From Microthrixaceae bacterium (GTDB lineage Bacteria > Actinomycetota > Acidimicrobiia > Acidimicrobiales > Acidimicrobilacustridaceae): a stretch of DNA of 58,603 bases. The stretch spans positions 1-58,603 of the forward strand of contig CANFQA010000013.1 of assembly GCA_947449015.1 (NCBI GenBank). The letters run 5' to 3'. Position 1 is the stretch's first letter; each line of letters begins with the position of its first letter. A program made the position numbers and the translations under genes. Positions 3,323-10,823 of this stretch are shown one piece after another. Below the pieces are notes generated by a model, which was given only the letters and a program-made list of their open reading frames with translations, made no database searches and had not been told where the DNA came from.

Positions 3323-4879
3323 TTACTCGACGCTGGCGCCGAGGCCCTCGTGAGTTCCGGAAAAGTCCGGGTAGGCCAGCACACCCATCTCAGGAATATC
3401 GAGACCAGCGATCTCGTCAGCCGCATCGCTGCGAATGCCACCCTTGAAGACCTTCTGGGAGAGCTTGAAGAAGGCGAAGGAGATGCCGCCCATGACCACC
3501 ACGATCACGAGCACACCGATTGCCTGCGCAGCGAGCTGTCCCCAGCCCGAACTGCCGTAGAGCACACCGGTCACACCCGTGGCCGCACCAGCGGAATCGA
3601 GGTGTGTGGTGGTGCCGTTCCAGCCGAGGCCGGCTCCGAGCGCATCGACGCCGTAGCGACCGTTGGCGAAGATACCGAGGGCGAGCACGCCCCAGATGCC
3701 GTTGGCGAAGTGCACGCCGATGGCGCCCACCGGATCGTCGATCTTGACCTTCTGATCAACGAAGAACACGACCTCGACCACGATGATGCCGGCGATCAGC
3801 CCGATCAGGCCGGCAGCCCACGGGTCGACGAACGCACAGGGTGCGGTGATGGCCACGAGCCCGGCAAGCAGACCATTCATGATCATGGCGGGGTCGGGCT
3901 TGCCGGTCCGCTTCCAGACCCAGAGCATGCCGGTCATGCCACCCAGTGCCGCGGCGATAGCGGTGTTGGCGGCCACAACAGCGAACTGGCCATCAGCGAT
4001 CTGCAGCGTGGATGCGGCGTTGAAACCGAACCAGCCGAAGAACAGGATCAGCGTGCCCGCTCCGGCCATGGCGATGCTGTGGCCCGGGATACCTCGGGCC
4101 TTGCCGTCCTTGCCGTACTTCCCGATACGGGGACCGAGGACCAACGCACCAGTGAGGGCGGCCACACCACCAACGGCGTGCACCACGCCGGAGCCGGCGA
4201 AGTCGACATAGCCGTTACCGAGCTTGAGAGTGTTGCCGAGCTGCGAGAGCCAGCCACCGCCCCAGGTCCAGGCACCGAACAGCGGGTAGTACAGGGCGCC
4301 GCAGAACAGACCCCACAGGACGAAGGACTTGAACTTCCAACGCTCGGCCATCGACCCGGTGGGGATGGTGGCGGCGGTGTCCATGAAGGCCAGCATGTAG
4401 AGGAAGTAACCGGCCACGGCACCGGAGGCAGCGAACTTGCCACCGGTGAGCGCCCAGCCGCCCTGCCACAGGAAGACCCAGTGTCCACTGCCGAGCAGTG
4501 GGCCACCGAGGGCATGGTCATATCCCCAGTCGAAACCGGGAACGTTGGCCGAATAGCCACCGAACATGAGGCCGTAGCCCACGATGAAGAAGGCGGTGGC
4601 GCCGGTGGCGAACACCGCGATGTTCATCGCCATGGTGTGAGCCGCGTTCTTGGCCCGGATGAAACCGGTCTCGAGCATGGCGAAACCGGCCTGCATGAAC
4701 ATCACCAGCGAGGCGCCGACGATGATCCACAACAGGTTGGTGTTCTGCGAGAACAGCACGAACGGATCAGGTGCCGCAGTCGTGGTTTCCACGGTCTCCT
4801 GGGCAGATGCCACACCGGTGAGCAGAAGCGTGGCGGCGCCAGCGACAGCACCTCCGAGAGCAAGTCGTTTCATCTTCAC
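3323..4879 (-). CDS. amt: Ammonium transporter (Amt1)
   Basis: A 518-residue Amt/Mep/Rh channel. A signal peptide covers about residues 1-26 (ends GVASAQE), as in many bacterial Amt proteins. The Amt signature around FMQAGFAMLETGFIRAKN is present, and the two pore histidines lie in GVVHAVGG and GVHFANG, so ammonium conduction should be intact. The start is GTG at 4877-4879, whose last two bases with the following A form the TGA stop of glnK1 (GTGA overlap). This indicates translational coupling to the PII protein that should gate the channel. An in-frame ATG two codons later is the alternative start. It is the last gene of the minus-strand nitrogen locus. Confidence 0.96.
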   Translation of the reverse strand: MKMKRLALGGAVAGAATLLLTGVASAQETVETTTAAPDPFVLFSQNTNLLWIIVGASLVMFMQAGFAMLETGFIRAKNAAHTMAMNIAVFATGATAFFIVGYGLMFGGYSANVPGFDWGYDHALGGPLLGSGHWVFLWQGGWALTGGKFAASGAVAGYFLYMLAFMDTAATIPTGSMAERWKFKSFVLWGLFCGALYYPLFGAWTWGGGWLSQLGNTLKLGNGYVDFAGSGVVHAVGGVAALTGALVLGPRIGKYGKDGKARGIPGHSIAMAGAGTLILFFGWFGFNAASTLQIADGQFAVVAANTAIAAALGGMTGMLWVWKRTGKPDPAMIMNGLLAGLVAITAPCAFVDPWAAGLIGLIAGIIVVEVVFFVDQKVKIDDPVGAIGVHFANGIWGVLALGIFANGRYGVDALGAGLGWNGTTTHLDSAGAATGVTGVLYGSSGWGQLAAQAIGVLVIVVVMGGISFAFFKLSQKVFKGGIRSDAADEIAGLDIPEMGVLAYPDFSGTHEGLGASVE

Positions 4880-5217
4880 AGCGCATCTCCATCTCGTTCA
4901 CCGGTGCGGATTCGCACCATCTTGGACACCGGGGTGACCCAGATCTTCCCGTCACCGATCTTGTCGGTACGGGCTGCATTCATGATCGTGTCGACGACCC
5001 GATCAGTATCGGCCTCGCTGCAAAGCACCTCGACCTTGACCTTGGGGAGAAGGTCGACCTTGTACTCAGCTCCTCGATAGGTCTCGGTGTGCCCGCCTTG
5101 GCGACCGAACCCCTTGACCTCATCCACCGTCATACCGGGCATGTCGATGGCCTTGAGCGCGTCCTTCACCTCCTCGAGCTTGTGCGGCTTGATCACCGCG
5201 GTCACCAGATTGACCAT
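4876..5217 (-). CDS. glnK: PII nitrogen signal protein GlnK1
   Basis: A 113-residue PII protein. The first PII signature surrounds the T-loop (RGAEYKVDLLPK), in which Tyr52 aligns with Tyr51 of E. coli GlnB, the residue that is uridylylated in enterics and adenylylated in actinobacteria. The C-terminal signature KIGDGKIWVTP is intact. PII trimers bind ATP/ADP and 2-oxoglutarate and block Amt channels with the T-loop. The ATG at 5217 has a strong GGAGGAG Shine-Dalgarno sequence 5 bases away. The gene overlaps amt1 by 4 bases and follows a 249-base intergenic region filled with phased half-sites. Confidence 0.97.
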   Translation of the reverse strand: MVNLVTAVIKPHKLEEVKDALKAIDMPGMTVDEVKGFGRQGGHTETYRGAEYKVDLLPKVKVEVLCSEADTDRVVDTIMNAARTDKIGDGKIWVTPVSKMVRIRTGERDGDAL

Positions 5218-5279
5218 CTCTCCTCCTTCGGGTTGAGCCAGTGGCTCCTGAATCGCACCAGATCGGTCTGACGGAGACG

Positions 5280-5470
5280 TCAGAACCTCGTCAGGAACCA
5301 GATCGGTATCTGACGCGAGGCTGACCATACGGAGGGCGGATTTCCCAACGGTGTTGGGTTTGTTACACGCCCGAACCGAGAATCTGACCAAAATCTGACA
5401 TCACTGGAGCCGGTGAACTGATTCAGTACCCGCTCAGAAAGCCATCAGTCTGGCGTCAGAATGCGATCAG
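5280..5470. promoter_or_regulatory. Phased 11-bp half-site array upstream of glnK1-amt1
   Basis: Five TCAG tetramers lie exactly 11 bp apart (5423, 5434, 5445, 5456, 5467), each separated by 7 bases. Three further pairs also use 11-bp spacing: CTGA at 5384 and 5395 (inside AATCTGAC repeats), CTGA at 5310 and 5321, and TCAG at 5280 and 5291. The last TCAG overlaps the stop codon of the histidine kinase gene. Direct repeats spaced 11 bp are the usual footprint of OmpR/PhoB-type regulators, and such a regulator is encoded immediately upstream. An 18-bp palindrome (TCTGACGGAGACGTCAGA, 5267-5284) and a direct repeat ACCAGATCGGT (5257 and 5297) are also present. Confidence 0.75.
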
Positions 5471-6828
5471 GCCGGAGTGGGAGCGAGCGGAAGGGTGAAG
5501 GTGAACACCGCTCCCCCACCTTCGGCCCCGTCGACACGCACCGACCCACCATGACTGAGCGCGGTCTGTTCGACAATGGCGAGTCCGAGACCGGAGCCCG
5601 GCAGGGAACGAGCAGCCGCCGAGCGATAGAAGCGTTCGAAGATGTGAGCACGCTCGGCGGGAGGGACACCCGGCCCGTGATCGCGGACCGTGATCACACC
5701 ATCGGCGAGGGAGAGTTCGATCGGGGCGGGGGCCTCGCTGAACTTGGCGGCGTTCTCGAGGAGGTTGCCCACCGCACGGGAGAGATCCCGGGGGCGACCC
5801 ACGACCTCGCAGGGGGAGATGGAGGTGATGATCTCCCGTCCGGTGCGACGACGCACACGATCGGCGGCCCGCTCGACGAGCTGGTCGAGCGCGAGGCGCT
5901 GGTCGGGCTCATCGTCATAGGTGTCGGTGGCCAGCTGCACGAGCTCGTCGACCAGCGAGCCGAGCTCGCGGGTCTCGGCCTCGAGATCGGACAGGATCGA
6001 CCGACGGGTGGGTTCGGGGAGCGACTCGTAGCGCTGGAGGGTCTCGATGTTGGTGCGCAGGCTGGTGAGTGGCGTGCGCAATTCATGCCCGGCATCTTGC
6101 ACAAGCTGTTGCTGCTGTTCGCGGGAGCGTCCCAGGGCGCCCAGCATGGTGGCGAATGCCCGGCCGAGACGACCCGGTTCGTCATTCCCACTCACTGGAA
6201 TCGGAACGTCGAGGCGGCCTGTGGTTGCCACCTCCTCGGCGGCATCGGTGAGCTGCACGAGCGGCTCGGTGGCCCGGCGGGCGATGAGCCAACCAGCAGC
6301 GGCGCCCAGCGCCGCAGTGGCGGCGACCACCAGCAGCAACCACCAGCGCAGACCGTCGAGCACGCGCTGTGACTCGCCGTAGTCGCGAGCGATCTGCACG
6401 GCACCACCGGATGGCAGCGCAACGGTTTGTACCCGATAGGTCGTGGAATCGACGTGAACGGTGCGGGTGCGCTGACCGCCGCCGGACCGGGCGAGCACCT
6501 GATCTTCTGCATCCACCGGCAGCGCAACCGAACCCACCGAGGCCACGGCGACTCCTGCGGGAGAGATGCACTGGAAGGCCACGCCCTCGACGCCGTCGTC
6601 GCCGATGCGGGGGCCGGCCAGCGCAGAGTTGGTTCCGCGTCGACCACACAGGGCGGCGGCATCACGGCCGTCGCGGTCCTGGAAGCGATGACCATAGGAG
6701 TCGAGATAGGAATCGACCTCGGCCCGGACCCGCTGATCGGTGGTGACGAACGCCGTGAACGCGACGACGACCGCCGCCAGGCCGGCCAGCACCGCGAGTG
6801 CGATGGCGATCCTCGCCCGCAGTGTCAT
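5467..6828 (-). CDS. Sensor histidine kinase of the nitrogen locus
   Basis: A 453-residue membrane kinase. Transmembrane segments at about 7-29 and 161-184 bracket an extracytoplasmic sensor domain of about 130 residues that contains two cysteines (Cys61, Cys87). A HAMP linker (about 185-235) follows, then the HisKA dimerisation domain with phospho-acceptor His248 in DAGHELRTPLTSL. The ATPase domain has the N box (NLLENAAKFS), G1 (DHGPGVP), F box (IFERFYR) and G2 (GSGLGLAIV). The architecture is MprB/PrrB-like. The start codon overlaps the response-regulator stop (ATGA), so both are co-translated. The context suggests a role in ammonium or nitrogen status, which is inference; the sensed ligand is unknown. 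Confidence 0.92.
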   Translation of the reverse strand: MTLRARIAIALAVLAGLAAVVVAFTAFVTTDQRVRAEVDSYLDSYGHRFQDRDGRDAAALCGRRGTNSALAGPRIGDDGVEGVAFQCISPAGVAVASVGSVALPVDAEDQVLARSGGGQRTRTVHVDSTTYRVQTVALPSGGAVQIARDYGESQRVLDGLRWWLLLVVAATAALGAAAGWLIARRATEPLVQLTDAAEEVATTGRLDVPIPVSGNDEPGRLGRAFATMLGALGRSREQQQQLVQDAGHELRTPLTSLRTNIETLQRYESLPEPTRRSILSDLEAETRELGSLVDELVQLATDTYDDEPDQRLALDQLVERAADRVRRRTGREIITSISPCEVVGRPRDLSRAVGNLLENAAKFSEAPAPIELSLADGVITVRDHGPGVPPAERAHIFERFYRSAAARSLPGSGLGLAIVEQTALSHGGSVRVDGAEGGGAVFTFTLPLAPTPA

Positions 6829-7514
6829 GAGGTGCGCAGCGTGTACCCGACGCCGCGGACGGTGTGGATGAGGCGGTGCTCGCCGCCCTCCTCGGTCTTG
6901 CGTCGCAGGTACCCGATGTAGACGGCCAGCGCCTTCGAATCAGGGCCGAAGTCGTAGCCCCAGATGCGGTCGTAGATGGTGGAGTGCGAGAGCACCACGC
7001 CCGCGTTGTGGGCCAGCAGCTGCAGCAGATCGAACTCGGTCTTGGTGAGCTCCATCTCCCGGTCGCCGCGCCAGGCCCGACGGGAGGCGTCGTCGATGCG
7101 GAGGTCGTCGACGGAGATCTCGCGCTGGTCGGTGTCCTCGTCGCCGTAGGAGCTGCGACGAAGCAGGGAACGGATCCGGGCGAAGAGTTCGTCGAGCGAG
7201 AACGGCTTGGGCAGGTAGTCATCGGCGCCGGCATCGAGACCCGAGACCCGGTCGGAGACCTCGGTGCGCGCCGTGAGCACGAGGATGGGGAGACGGGATC
7301 CGGCTGACCGGAGCCGACGGCACACCGTGAGTCCGTCCACGTTGGGCATGCCGAGATCGAGGATCAGCAGATCGACCCCATCAGCGGCCGCCACTTCGAG
7401 TGCCGAGGCGCCATCACCCACGGCGGTGACGGCGTAGCCCTCGAGCTCGAGGGCTCGGCTGACCGATTCCCGCACGGCACGGTCGTCCTCGGCGATCACG
7501 ATGGTGGCTGTCAT
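6825..7514 (-). CDS. OmpR/PhoB-family response regulator
   Basis: A 229-residue two-domain regulator. The receiver domain has the acidic pocket (Glu9-Asp10-Asp11), phospho-acceptor Asp53 in LLILDLGMPNVD, the LTAR switch Thr and KPF lysine. The C-terminal winged helix (REMELTKTEFDLLQLLAHN ... YIGYLRRK ... TVRGVGYTLR) is typical of OmpR/PhoB proteins, which bind direct repeats spaced about 11 bp. Such repeats occur before glnK1 and amt2, so this is the natural candidate to bind them. ATG 7514 gives the canonical N-terminus; an ATG three codons earlier (7523) is possible. It overlaps the kinase gene by 4 bases. Confidence 0.94.
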   Translation of the reverse strand: MTATIVIAEDDRAVRESVSRALELEGYAVTAVGDGASALEVAAADGVDLLILDLGMPNVDGLTVCRRLRSAGSRLPILVLTARTEVSDRVSGLDAGADDYLPKPFSLDELFARIRSLLRRSSYGDEDTDQREISVDDLRIDDASRRAWRGDREMELTKTEFDLLQLLAHNAGVVLSHSTIYDRIWGYDFGPDSKALAVYIGYLRRKTEEGGEHRLIHTVRGVGYTLRTS

Positions 7515-7568
7515 GGCCCCCATTCCTAGTACGACCTCGTGAGATGGAGGTAAGAGTCCGGACGCGCA

Positions 7569-7594
7569 AGGGCCCCCGCCGCAGCGGGGGCCCT
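7569..7594. terminator. Terminator between glnK2 and the response regulator
   Basis: A GC-rich stem of 11 bp (7569-7579 with 7584-7594) encloses a 4-base loop, 20 bases after the glnK2 stop. It suggests that amt2-glnK2 and the two-component pair are at least partly separate transcription units. Confidence 0.8.
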
Positions 7595-7614
7595 CATCGT
7601 TCGCGGTGTCCGGA

Positions 7615-7956
7615 TCAGACGGCGTCGGCGCCGGTCTCTCCGGTGCGGATCCGGACCAGCTCGTCGAGGCTGTAGACCCAGATCTTGCCGTCACCGATCT
7701 TGCCGGTCTGGCCCGAGGCCGTGATCGTCTCGATCGCCTTCGGCACGAGTGCCTCATCGACGATCAGTTCGATCTTGATCTTCGGGAGAAGATCGACCTT
7801 GTACTCGGAACCACGGAAGGTCTCGGTCTTGCCGCCCTGACGGCCGAACCCCTTCACCTCCGTGACGGTGATCCCGGTGATGCCCGCACCCTTCAGTGCA
7901 TCCTTCACCTCGTCGAACTTGTGCGGCTTCAACACCGCGGTGACCAGTTTGAGCAT
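7615..7956 (-). CDS. glnK: PII nitrogen signal protein GlnK2
   Basis: A second 113-residue PII protein. The T-loop (RGSEYKVDLLPK) has Tyr52 in the modifiable position, and the C-terminal signature KIGDGKIWVYS is intact. It is clearly diverged from GlnK1 over residues 64-84 (IELIVDEALVPKAIETITASG), so the two PII proteins may pair with different channels. A strong AAAGGAGGAG Shine-Dalgarno sequence precedes the ATG. The gene lies 43 bases downstream of amt2, in the opposite order to glnK1-amt1. Confidence 0.97.
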   Translation of the reverse strand: MLKLVTAVLKPHKFDEVKDALKGAGITGITVTEVKGFGRQGGKTETFRGSEYKVDLLPKIKIELIVDEALVPKAIETITASGQTGKIGDGKIWVYSLDELVRIRTGETGADAV

Positions 7957-7999
7957 GTCGCTCCTCCTTTACTCGGTCAGAATCGTTGGGTCGTGGGCC

Positions 8000-9496
8000 T
8001 CAGGACGAGGTGGAGCTGGATGCTCCGGTTCCCATGAAGGCGAACTCGGGGTGGTACGCCGACCCACCGTGTTCGTGGATGTCGAGGCCCTCGAGCTCGA
8101 TCTCGGCCGGGACACGCAACTGCTTGGTGAGGTTGATGCCGTACATCAGCACCAGGCCGGCGGCCAGAACCAGACCGACCACCACACCCGAACCGATCAG
8201 CTGAGCGACGAGCTGCGACGTGCCGCCGCCGTAGAAGAGTCCCGACACGGTGCCGGCGCTGACATCGGCGCCGGTGGCACCGGGGATCCCGAAGTCTCCG
8301 GTGGCGAAGAGACCGACCGCCAGCGTGCCCCAGATCCCAGCGACGCCGTGGACGGCGACCGCACCGATGGGGTCGTCGACCCGGAACCATTCGATGACGT
8401 CGATGGCGATGATGGCCACGACTGCGCCGACCGCACCGATGATGATGGCGCCGAGCGGGCTCACCCAGTAGCAGGGGGCGGTGATGGCGACCAGGCCGGC
8501 GAGGAAGCCGTTGATCGTGATGCCCGGATCCCACTTCTTGGTGCGCACGTACATCCAGACGAGGCCCATGAGACAACCTGCGCAGGCGGCGAGGGTGGTG
8601 TTGGCGGCGACCCGGCCGATGCCCTCGAGGTCCATGGCGCTGAGGGTGGAGCCGGGGTTGAAGCCGTACCAGCCGAACCACAGGATGATGCCGCCGATGG
8701 CTGCGATCGTCATGTCGTGACCGACCATGAAACCGCCGCCGTCACGCTTGAACTTGCGACCCAGGCGGGGGCCGAGGGCCACGGCGCCGGTGAGGGCGAG
8801 AACGCCGCCGACAGTGTGGACGACGGTGGAACCGGCGAAGTCACGGAACGGCGTGTCGAGGGTGGCGAGCCAGCCGCCCGGACCCCAGATCCAATGCCCG
8901 ACGATCGGGTAGATGATGGCGCTGACGCCGACGCTGTAGATGAGGTCACCCTTGAAGCTGGTGCGACCCACCATGGCGCCCGACACGATGGTCGAGGCGG
9001 TGTCGGCGAAGGCGAACTGGAACAGGAAGAAGGCGAGGAACGCCACACCGGTCGTCCCGTAGGTGGGGGTGGCCCCACTCAGGAAGAAGAACTGGTGGCC
9101 GATCCAGCCATTGCCCTCACCGAACATGAAGGCGAAGCCCACCGCCCAGAAGAGGATGCCGCACATGGCGGTGTCGACGATGCACTCCATGAGCACGTTG
9201 ACGGTCTCCCGGGTGCGGGCGAAACCGGCCTCGAGCATCATGAACCCGGCCTGCATGAAGAACACGAGGAACGCCGCCACGAGCACCCACATGGTGTTGA
9301 GCGGGTTGATGAGGTCGGCGGCCTGCGCCATGGGCGTCTCCGCCGCCTGCGCACCGGCCTGACTCCCGAAGTACCAGGTGATGCCGCCGATGACACCCAG
9401 CAGCGCTGTGGTGCCGACCATCTTCCCGGCCAGGTAGGTCATGAAGTAGCGGCGCGAATCCTGCTCCTTCATGCCCGCTACGAATCTCTTGATCAT
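8000..9496 (-). CDS. amt: Ammonium transporter (Amt2)
   Basis: A 498-residue Amt channel without an obvious cleavable signal. About 25 basic and polar residues (MIKRFVAGMKEQDSRR) precede a first hydrophobic segment, so it has an extra N-terminal helix compared with plain Amt proteins. The Amt signature FMQAGFMMLEAGFARTRE and both pore histidines (VVHTVGG and VHGVAG) are present. ATG 9496 is chosen for its GGAGGAG Shine-Dalgarno sequence at proper spacing; the frame is open 28 codons further upstream without family-like residues. It heads the amt2-glnK2 unit, and its upstream region carries CTGA pairs spaced 11 bp like those before glnK1. Confidence 0.95.
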   Translation of the reverse strand: MIKRFVAGMKEQDSRRYFMTYLAGKMVGTTALLGVIGGITWYFGSQAGAQAAETPMAQAADLINPLNTMWVLVAAFLVFFMQAGFMMLEAGFARTRETVNVLMECIVDTAMCGILFWAVGFAFMFGEGNGWIGHQFFFLSGATPTYGTTGVAFLAFFLFQFAFADTASTIVSGAMVGRTSFKGDLIYSVGVSAIIYPIVGHWIWGPGGWLATLDTPFRDFAGSTVVHTVGGVLALTGAVALGPRLGRKFKRDGGGFMVGHDMTIAAIGGIILWFGWYGFNPGSTLSAMDLEGIGRVAANTTLAACAGCLMGLVWMYVRTKKWDPGITINGFLAGLVAITAPCYWVSPLGAIIIGAVGAVVAIIAIDVIEWFRVDDPIGAVAVHGVAGIWGTLAVGLFATGDFGIPGATGADVSAGTVSGLFYGGGTSQLVAQLIGSGVVVGLVLAAGLVLMYGINLTKQLRVPAEIELEGLDIHEHGGSAYHPEFAFMGTGASSSTSS

Positions 9497-9561
9497 TGCT
9501 CCTCCGTTTGCATCTCTGGCGTCCTTCCGACGCAGTGGGCAACCTACGGAGGTCGTGTTGC

Positions 9562-9615
9562 CTGATCGTTCGCTGAACATGACGCGAACCGCACAGCTTC
9601 CTGACGGGTATCTGT
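9562..9615. promoter_or_regulatory. CTGA half-site pairs upstream of amt2
   Basis: CTGA occurs at 9562 and 9573 (11 bp apart), and CTGA at 9601 is followed by CTGT at 9612 (11 bp). These lie 66-120 bases upstream of the amt2 start and match the element and spacing found before glnK1. Confidence 0.5.
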
Positions 9616-9684
9616 ACGGACCTGCCGAGAGCGATCACCGTGATCACCGAAGGGGCTGCGCTCCCCCGACGGCATCGGAACCTC

Positions 9685-9690
9685 TAGGGT
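9685..9690 (+). promoter_or_regulatory. Probable -10 element, leaderless FKBP gene
   Basis: TAGGGT fits the actinobacterial TANNNT -10 pattern and ends 8 bases before the ATG at 9699. No Shine-Dalgarno sequence is present, so transcription probably starts at the start codon. Confidence 0.5.
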
Positions 9691-9698
9691 TGCCGCCC

Positions 9699-10823
9699 AT
9701 GACCTCCGATCTCCCCGACGAGTCCACCTCCGACGAGCAGGACACGACCCCCACCGACGACACCTCCGTCGAGACCTCCCTCGGACGCAGCAGCGATGAA
9801 CTCGGCGAGCGCACCGTCGCCACCGAACTCGTCGATGCCCCCGTCGAGACCGCCGTCGCTGCAGCACCCGCATCGGCCGGCAACCGCACTCGGATCATCA
9901 TCGGTGCCCTGGTGGCGGCCCTCGTGGTCGCCGGTGTGGCCATCTTCATGCTGACCCGCAGCGACTCCTCCTCGAAGGATTCGGCGGAGACCAGCACATC
10001 GGTCCCGGCGAAGACGAAGTCGCTCGACGGCGTCAAGGTCGAGGGTGCGTTCGGCGAGAAGCCCACCATCACCTTCAAGCCCGCCTACGTCGGTTCCGAG
10101 GAATCCTTCAAGATCCTCTCCGAGGGCGACGGACCCGTCGTCGAGGACGGCCAGCGCGTCACGCTCAACTACGTCGCCGTGAGTGGCAACGACGGCTCGG
10201 AGCTCGACTCCACCTTCGGCCAGGCACCGCAGTCCGTCACCGCCAGCAAGGCCTCACTCACCGCAGTGCTCGCCGACGCCCTCGTCGGTCAGCATGTGGG
10301 CACGCGGGTGCTCGTCGCCGGTGACCAGACCAAGGCCCAGCCGGCGGCATGGGTGCTGTTCGTGTTCGACATCGTGGGCGCCGAGACCCTCCCGACCTCC
10401 GCCGAGGGCACACCGCAGACCCCGAAGGCCGGTTTCCCGACCGTCACCGTGGAGAACGGCGTGCCCACGCTGGCCACTCCGACCGGCACCGCCCCCACCA
10501 CCCTGCAGACCGAGGTGCTCATCAAGGGCAACGGTCCGGCGATCACCTCGGGCCAGACCGTCACCATGCAGTACACGGGCATCATCTGGGCAACCGGCAA
10601 GGAGTTCGACTCCTCATGGGGCAGCGATCCCGTCGACTTCCCGATCGGCACCGGTCAGGTGATCCCGGGCTTCGACGAGGGGCTCATCGGGCAGACCGTC
10701 GGTTCCCGCGTCGTGCTGGTCATCCCGCCCGACAAGGGCTACGGCACCTCGGGCAACAGCCAGGCCGGCATCAGCGGCACCGACACCCTCGTGTTCGTGG
10801 TCGACATCCTCGCCGCATCCTGA
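9699..10823 (+). CDS. Membrane-anchored tandem FKBP-type peptidyl-prolyl isomerase
   Basis: 374 residues. An acidic, Thr/Asp-rich cytoplasmic tail (1-62) is followed by one transmembrane helix (about 66-86), a linker and two FKBP-like domains facing outside. The first (about 130-235) keeps the fold pattern VEDGQRVTLNYVAV but appears degenerate around the active site. The second (about 278-374) has GQTVTMQYTGIIWATGKEFDSSW, VIPGFDEGLIGQTVGSRVVLVIPPDKGYG and a final DTLVFVVDIL, so it should be the catalytic one. The likely role is folding of exported proteins. It diverges from amt2 and appears leaderless. Confidence 0.88.
   Translation: MTSDLPDESTSDEQDTTPTDDTSVETSLGRSSDELGERTVATELVDAPVETAVAAAPASAGNRTRIIIGALVAALVVAGVAIFMLTRSDSSSKDSAETSTSVPAKTKSLDGVKVEGAFGEKPTITFKPAYVGSEESFKILSEGDGPVVEDGQRVTLNYVAVSGNDGSELDSTFGQAPQSVTASKASLTAVLADALVGQHVGTRVLVAGDQTKAQPAAWVLFVFDIVGAETLPTSAEGTPQTPKAGFPTVTVENGVPTLATPTGTAPTTLQTEVLIKGNGPAITSGQTVTMQYTGIIWATGKEFDSSWGSDPVDFPIGTGQVIPGFDEGLIGQTVGSRVVLVIPPDKGYGTSGNSQAGISGTDTLVFVVDILAAS

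Follow-up and report, generated by a model that had tools for sequence, protein, structure and literature searches.

TCAG-N7-TCAG, a probable tandem operator at ammonium-uptake promoters of an actinobacterial lineage

The glnK1-amt1 locus and its TCAG repeats

The window analyzed here is a stretch of 58,603 nucleotides from a Microthrixaceae bacterium. Its minus strand encodes, in order, amt2, glnK2, a response regulator, a histidine kinase, a gap (5218–5466), glnK1 and amt1, so that in this genome the response regulator sits between two ammonium operons. The features referred to below are as follows, with "gene-sense" denoting the direction of glnK1.

8000–9580, minus: amt2, open frame of an ammonium transporter (PF00909), likely start 9496 from sequence
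9562–9576, minus: TCAG-N7-TCAG upstream of amt2, off the register of relatives' amt2 genes
7615–7956, minus: glnK2, PII protein (PF00543)
7539–7554, minus: CTTACC-N5-CTCAC direct repeat before the response regulator
6825–7514, minus: OmpR-family response regulator; best solved matches Mycobacterium tuberculosis PrrA and PhoP
5467–6828, minus: histidine kinase (HAMP, HisKA, HATPase_c), from domain matches and predicted structure
5423–5470, plus: five-unit TCAG array of 11-bp period, reading CTGA in the glnK1 direction, opposite to boxes 1 and 2
5384–5398, minus: box 1, gene-sense TCAG-N7-TCAG, the conserved upstream candidate operator
5340–5366, minus: GlnR-type box, GTAAC-N6-AACAC-N6-GAAAT, 32 bp past the start of box 1 (alignment A1)
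5324–5329, minus: −10-like hexamer TATGGT, 10 bp past the GlnR-type box; putative promoter element
5310–5324, minus: box 2, TCAG-N7-TCAG, 74 bp after box 1, its first T common with the −10-like hexamer
5280–5294, plus: box 3, reverse-oriented TCAG-N7-TCAG in the leader; only its first half, gene-sense, is found again, in roughly half of the relatives
5268–5283, minus: leader dyad CTGAC-N6-GTCAG, in most relatives NCGAC-N6-GTCGN
4876–5217, minus: glnK1, PII protein (PF00543)
3323–4879, minus: amt1, ammonium transporter (PF00909)

The predicted structure of the kinase (mean pLDDT 79.5, pTM 0.40) suggests a small alpha/beta domain flanked by two long helices. An Rfam search of 4800–10200 with E values up to 1 returned no family. 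The same assembly contains a second amt2-glnK2-regulator-kinase-glnK1-amt1 cluster (L147, on contig C33 of G000; regulator 91%, kinase 78%), which reflects either genuine duplication of the cluster or the presence of two strains in the bin, and whose kinase-glnK1 gap is without an exact TCAG pair.

The five TCAG units upstream of glnK1 start on the plus strand at 5423, 5434, 5445, 5456 and 5467, in 11-bp steps throughout, exactly as the preliminary description of this locus had them. Its judgment that such an array is improbable by chance also holds, as TCAG/CTGA frequencies predict about 1e-7 five-in-register arrays per window, and the overlap it noted between the last TCAG and the kinase stop codon is real (kinase on the minus strand from 6828 to 5467, complement of the stop at 5467–5469). 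The window contains nine TCAG-N7-TCAG pairs, compared with 2.21 ± 1.33 in shuffled sequences (0 of 100 shuffles reach nine), and four of the nine are the array itself. The segment 5218–5470 holds 14 TCAG/CTGA tetramers (1.97 expected) and is the densest 253-bp stretch of the window in a scan with steps of 10. Beyond the array, the kinase-glnK1 gap contains three more pairs, at 5280–5294 (plus), 5310–5324 (minus) and 5384–5398 (minus), two of the three in gene-sense.

Conservation and promoter architecture in relatives

At a threshold of 1e-40, 40 of 61 genomes have a match to the kinase, and at 1e-100 so do 19 of the 21 genomes of the genus. Forty regions were fetched, of which the 18 with the kinase followed by glnK1 were used, the rest being without that order or cut by a contig end. 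The resulting set of 19 kinase-glnK1 gaps comprises the window, the C33 copy, 15 other genomes of the genus, and G023 and G034 from other genera; kinase and regulator stand directly before glnK1 in 18 genomes.

An exact gene-sense TCAG-N7-TCAG pair is present in 16 of the 19 gaps, against 0.0067 expected per gap by simulation. The three gaps without it are those of C33 and G012, each with one mismatch in box 1, and of G013, which has no TCAG box. The spacing is specific: gene-sense pairs in the 19 gaps number 22 at N7 and 0 or 1 at every other spacing from 0 to 20. Reverse-sense pairs number six at N7 (five in the window) and four each at spacings 2, 6 and 12. A background of 225 kb around pstS and glnA, which includes overlapping loci, yielded six N7 pairs, not above neighbouring spacings. 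The proposal that 11-bp direct repeats of the OmpR/PhoB kind precede glnK-amt is thus borne out in the form of a two-unit box, conserved at a fixed promoter spacing. Its two parts separate when relatives with the same gene order are compared, since the two-unit box recurs exactly in 15 of the 18 other gaps and the five-unit array in none (0/18); the array, known so far from one genome, does not survive that comparison and the two-unit box does.

Elsewhere in the assembly, exact TCAG triples occur on contigs C28 and C58 only, as a repeat of near-identical units, and a reversed-motif control gave no exact triples. This 11-bp tandem repeat, TCAGCACTGCA, lies close to contig ends (L005 505–552 on G000:C58; L004 148–173 on G000:C28), and the two copies are possibly one repeat that broke the assembly. 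The existence of such a TCAG repeat of the same period, together with the absence of the array from the other 18 gaps, raises the alternative that the array is a functionless by-product of repeat slippage. The two 22-bp halves of the array also have 9 of 14 spacer bases in common, a value attained by 0.2% of random draws, so the array may have begun as the duplication of a two-unit site. We nevertheless consider a functionless array unlikely: its spacers average 31% identity, compared with 91% in the C58 repeat, yet its cores are 100% identical, and 24 bp separate it from box 1, the conserved box of equal spacing on its downstream side. The retention of all five cores suggests selection on the array; a search for relatives close enough to display such selection directly found none. 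The array is most likely a lineage-specific outgrowth, or extra copy, of the conserved two-unit operator.

In 18 of the 19 promoters, box 1, GTAAC, the third unit of the GlnR-type box and the −10-like hexamer lie at fixed distances with no indels, and the hexamer conforms to TA....T in 19/19. Alignment of the gaps shows both CAG cores of box 1 to be invariant or nearly so, with units that read TCAG or ACAG in 18 of 19 promoters and TCGG in the remaining one. None has a final C. Box 2 is more variable. It reads TCAG/TCAG in 6/19 (the window, G023, G017, G014, G018 and G034) and TCAT/TCAG in another 6/19 (G011, G005, G015, G016, G003 and G002); four genomes have TCAT with an altered second half (G004, G020, G006 and G007), G012 has TCTG/TCAG, and box 2 is absent from C33 and G013 in the table of 19 promoters. 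In the leader, the dyad (5-bp arms, 6-nt loop) is complementary at 5 of 5 positions in 11 of 19 leaders, and in an analysis of paired changes across 14 of the 19 leaders, 7 sequences had one base pair altered in both arms. The dyad may form a hairpin in the RNA or serve as an operator in the DNA.

The GlnR-type element carries GTAAC in 18 of 19 promoters, at a position by the −10-like hexamer where activators of GlnR's family commonly sit. Compared with the GlnR box consensus gTnAc-n6-GaAAc (excerpts of PMC10704036), its third unit (GAAAT, GAAAC or GTAAT) fits and its middle unit (AACAC, CACAC or AACAT) fits poorly. Box 1 and the GlnR-type box stand in one 11-bp register, and GTCAG is one base off gTnAc. 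These likenesses raise the question of whether the TCAG units are themselves non-standard GlnR half-sites, with box 1 and the GTAAC box forming a six-unit GlnR array comparable to the three GlnR boxes at Streptomyces coelicolor amtB (PMC5826061, in part). The two classes of unit are not interchanged, however: in the 18 aligned promoters with box 1, the final base is G in box 1 units and C in the GTAAC unit, as the preliminary description anticipated in holding the half-sites distinct from GlnR boxes, and box 1 units do not follow gTnAc-n6-GaAAc. Box 2 moreover lies over the −10-like hexamer, apart from the GlnR-type units, and the TCAG pair is found at 0 of 13 glnA promoters.

This genome does encode a GlnR-like protein, beside two glnA genes, which would provide a reader for such an array. 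Among solved structures it is matched best by entry 8hih (139.7 bits), which also tops the list for a query that we take to be S. coelicolor GlnR. The helix TVDVHIRRLRAKLG of the GlnR-like protein is close to that of the same presumed S. coelicolor sequence, and altered GlnR specificity is therefore not expected. On balance, GlnR is quite unlikely to be the reader of the TCAG units.

Distribution over genes and genomes

A search of the 21 genomes of the genus with the strict motif GTCAG-N6-GTCAGA returned 29 matches, against 10 for a reversed control. Fourteen of these are at glnK1-amt1, four at a third amt gene (two in this genome and two in G011) and 11 elsewhere; the last number is close to that of the control, and 8 of the 11 lie inside roughly predicted reading frames. 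Reading frames around several of the motif and amt loci are likewise rough predictions. A search for triple TCAG units, with hits in 31 of 61 genomes, was used as a lead only, because the loci examined included simple tandem repeats as well as sites within coding sequence or over stop codons. One TCAG triple lies near a putative aminotransferase (by sequence) in four relatives; in the three loci read (L008, L013 and L014, near 1501) it is located by the end of a transporter permease gene and before the putative aminotransferase, and its overlap with coding sequence makes it an uncertain candidate.

At ammonium-transport genes, for which counts refer to the loci read and not to all amt matches, a gene-sense pair is present in five of the six amt2 promoters read and in 3 of 16 third-amt promoters (this genome, G011 and G001), the orthology of these 16 genes being judged by match and flanks. 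Most of the other third-amt promoters appear by eye to carry a GlnR-type ladder (L197, L198 and L203 among them), compared with TCAG pairs in this genome and G011 (L211 and L226), as if control had been exchanged. In 15 of 29 amt loci of other genera and families, a loose GlnR-type triplet pattern lies upstream. The combination of box 1 with box 2 at the 74-bp distance was confined, among the loci read, to genera g1, g4 and g8 of the same family; G033, of another genus, has box 1, GTAAC, the hexamer and box 2 at identical spacing. Single intergenic pairs occur in G050, in G034 and at amt2-type loci, and box-2-like sites in G027, G029 and G031.

The glnA count given above comes from reading the promoter sequences, in which GlnR-type repeats were seen by eye, and the pair is likewise found at 0 of 14 pstS promoters, which by eye carry GTTCACC-type repeats; both sets (n = 13 and n = 14) are subsets of the matches. 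The pstS result bears on a further alternative, in which the TCAG pairs would serve as a Pho box for PhoP, coupling phosphate to nitrogen uptake as in Streptomyces. The tandem design of 11 bp is identical, and PhoP acts at S. coelicolor amtB (excerpts of PMC10704036). The Escherichia coli Pho box, CTGTCAT(A/T)4CTGTCAT (as quoted in excerpts of PMC4832192), is also an 11-bp repeat, and several box 1 units read CTGTCAG. The targets of the E. coli box are phosphate genes, whereas the TCAG pair is missing from all 14 pstS promoters, and the repeats seen there instead are of the type of the actinobacterial PHO box, GTTCACC-N4-GTTCACC. We accordingly regard a Pho box as very improbable.

From its conservation and distribution, TCAG-N7-TCAG is very probably a real, narrow and apparently undescribed operator at ammonium-uptake promoters; a partial literature search found no paper on the motif strings or on such an ammonium-uptake system.

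Candidate regulators and a model for ammonium uptake

The repeats have the organization of an OmpR/PhoB-type tandem operator, with direct half-sites 11 bp apart that are conserved before the same genes at a fixed promoter spacing, and a regulator of this type probably reads them. A published operator of similar design is that of M. tuberculosis PhoP, TCACAGC-N4-TCACAGC (excerpts of PMC4832192), likewise a tandem direct repeat of 7 + 4 bp with a TCA core; the candidate operator described here differs in its TCAG core and in the genes it precedes.

Of the possible readers, the adjacent response regulator, acting with its kinase, is the likeliest, an assignment that we make tentatively, at a confidence just short of even. 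It is favoured by gene linkage and by a PhoP-like tyrosine pair in its recognition helix, which when aligned to M. tuberculosis PhoP keeps Tyr217 and Tyr220, the two residues through which PhoP touches the 5′-terminal T and C of its half-site (PMC4832192). The mycobacterial PrrA-PrrB system offers a second comparison, PrrA being the best solved match of the regulator. Earlier work cited in PMC9371303 reports that prrAB is raised under nitrogen limitation; the words motif, binding site and consensus are absent from the main text of that paper.

At the helix position aligned to PhoP Val213, the regulator has A in genera with TCAG promoters and N in L169–L172, L176, L178 and L180, with further variants in L173 (A) and L179 (S). 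Box 1 was not seen in the four of seven N-type genomes whose amt loci were read (G025, G031, G042 and G035), of which G031 has a box-2-like site. This contrast between A and N is consistent with the adjacent regulator as reader, and may reflect phylogeny only. Against the adjacent regulator, G013 keeps the regulator and the gene order and has a GlnR-type promoter without a TCAG box. Other observations weigh against the tandem-operator explanation as a whole: in the C33 copy box 1 carries a mismatch and box 2 is missing, no more than six of the 19 promoters have an exact box 2, the pair is found at only three of the 16 third-amt promoters read, and the array is not conserved.

A different, unlinked regulator of the OmpR/PhoB family could instead read the TCAG pairs, with the adjacent system controlling itself and other genes through CTTACC-N5-CTCAC. 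This 11-bp direct repeat is conserved in the genus, where 15 of its 24 matches stand before the regulator gene; similar forms are seen by eye in more distant genomes, and the repeat also precedes a few other genes in relatives. Autoregulation through TCAG was looked for and not found: none of the 30 regulator promoters read has the exact pair, and five loci have one that is a single mismatch away. G033 also speaks for an unlinked reader, in that it has the composite promoter, yet none of its proteins matches the regulator at more than 44%. The G033 genome is 90% complete, and the GlnR-like protein also lacked a clear counterpart there (best E 7e-27), so the missing regulator is possibly an assembly gap. 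Regulators encoded beside amt genes in G033 and G029 appear KdpE-like by eye and were set aside. Given that regulator and kinase directly precede glnK1 in 18 genomes, and given the distribution of A and N at the Val213 position, with the reservation about phylogeny made above, we consider an unlinked reader somewhat unlikely.

We propose that each TCAG is one half-site, and that two monomers bind head to tail, 11 bp apart. At glnK1-amt1 the elements are ordered as box 1, the GlnR-type box, the −10-like hexamer and box 2 over the hexamer. GlnR would activate from its box by the −10 when nitrogen is short. The TCAG reader would supply a second input, acting as a repressor at box 2 and in a modulating or cooperative role at box 1; both the direction of its effect and the signal it answers to are guesses. 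For repression from box 2 we hold the chances to be balanced. In this lineage the five-unit array would add a stronger, reverse-oriented upstream site. M. tuberculosis PhoP binds cooperatively to tandem runs of two, three or four motifs separated by 4-bp spacers, and more strongly to three or four than to two (excerpts of PMC4832192), which is why the array could be a strong site. We lean slightly towards this explanation as a whole, that is, a tandem operator through which an OmpR/PhoB-family regulator dedicated to ammonium uptake gives a second input beside GlnR.

The closest known arrangement is the S. coelicolor amtB promoter, an ammonium-transport promoter that combines GlnR boxes with a second OmpR-family site (PMC10704036, PMC5826061, both in part), the PhoP and GlnR sites overlapping (PMC10704036). 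It differs from the promoters described here, in which the second site is TCAG-N7-TCAG, present twice at a fixed 74 bp and joined in the window by the five-unit array; at pstS, these genomes have another type of repeat. It is rather doubtful, if conceivable, that the differences go further and amount to a dedicated two-component system beside GlnR, with a new TCAG half-site, a mixed tandem array of two OmpR-family proteins in one 11-bp register and a regulon rewired between species, TCAG pairs having replaced the GlnR-type box of the third amt gene in this genome and G011.

Nitrogen control in Actinobacteria has been described mainly through GlnR, and through AmtR in corynebacteria. The TCAG pairs would represent a separate conserved operator, concentrated at ammonium-uptake promoters and usually adjoined by a kinase-regulator pair. 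They provide a direct means of asking whether a membrane kinase controls ammonium uptake beside GlnR in these uncultured bacteria, and whether two OmpR-family regulators can occupy one common 11-bp ladder.
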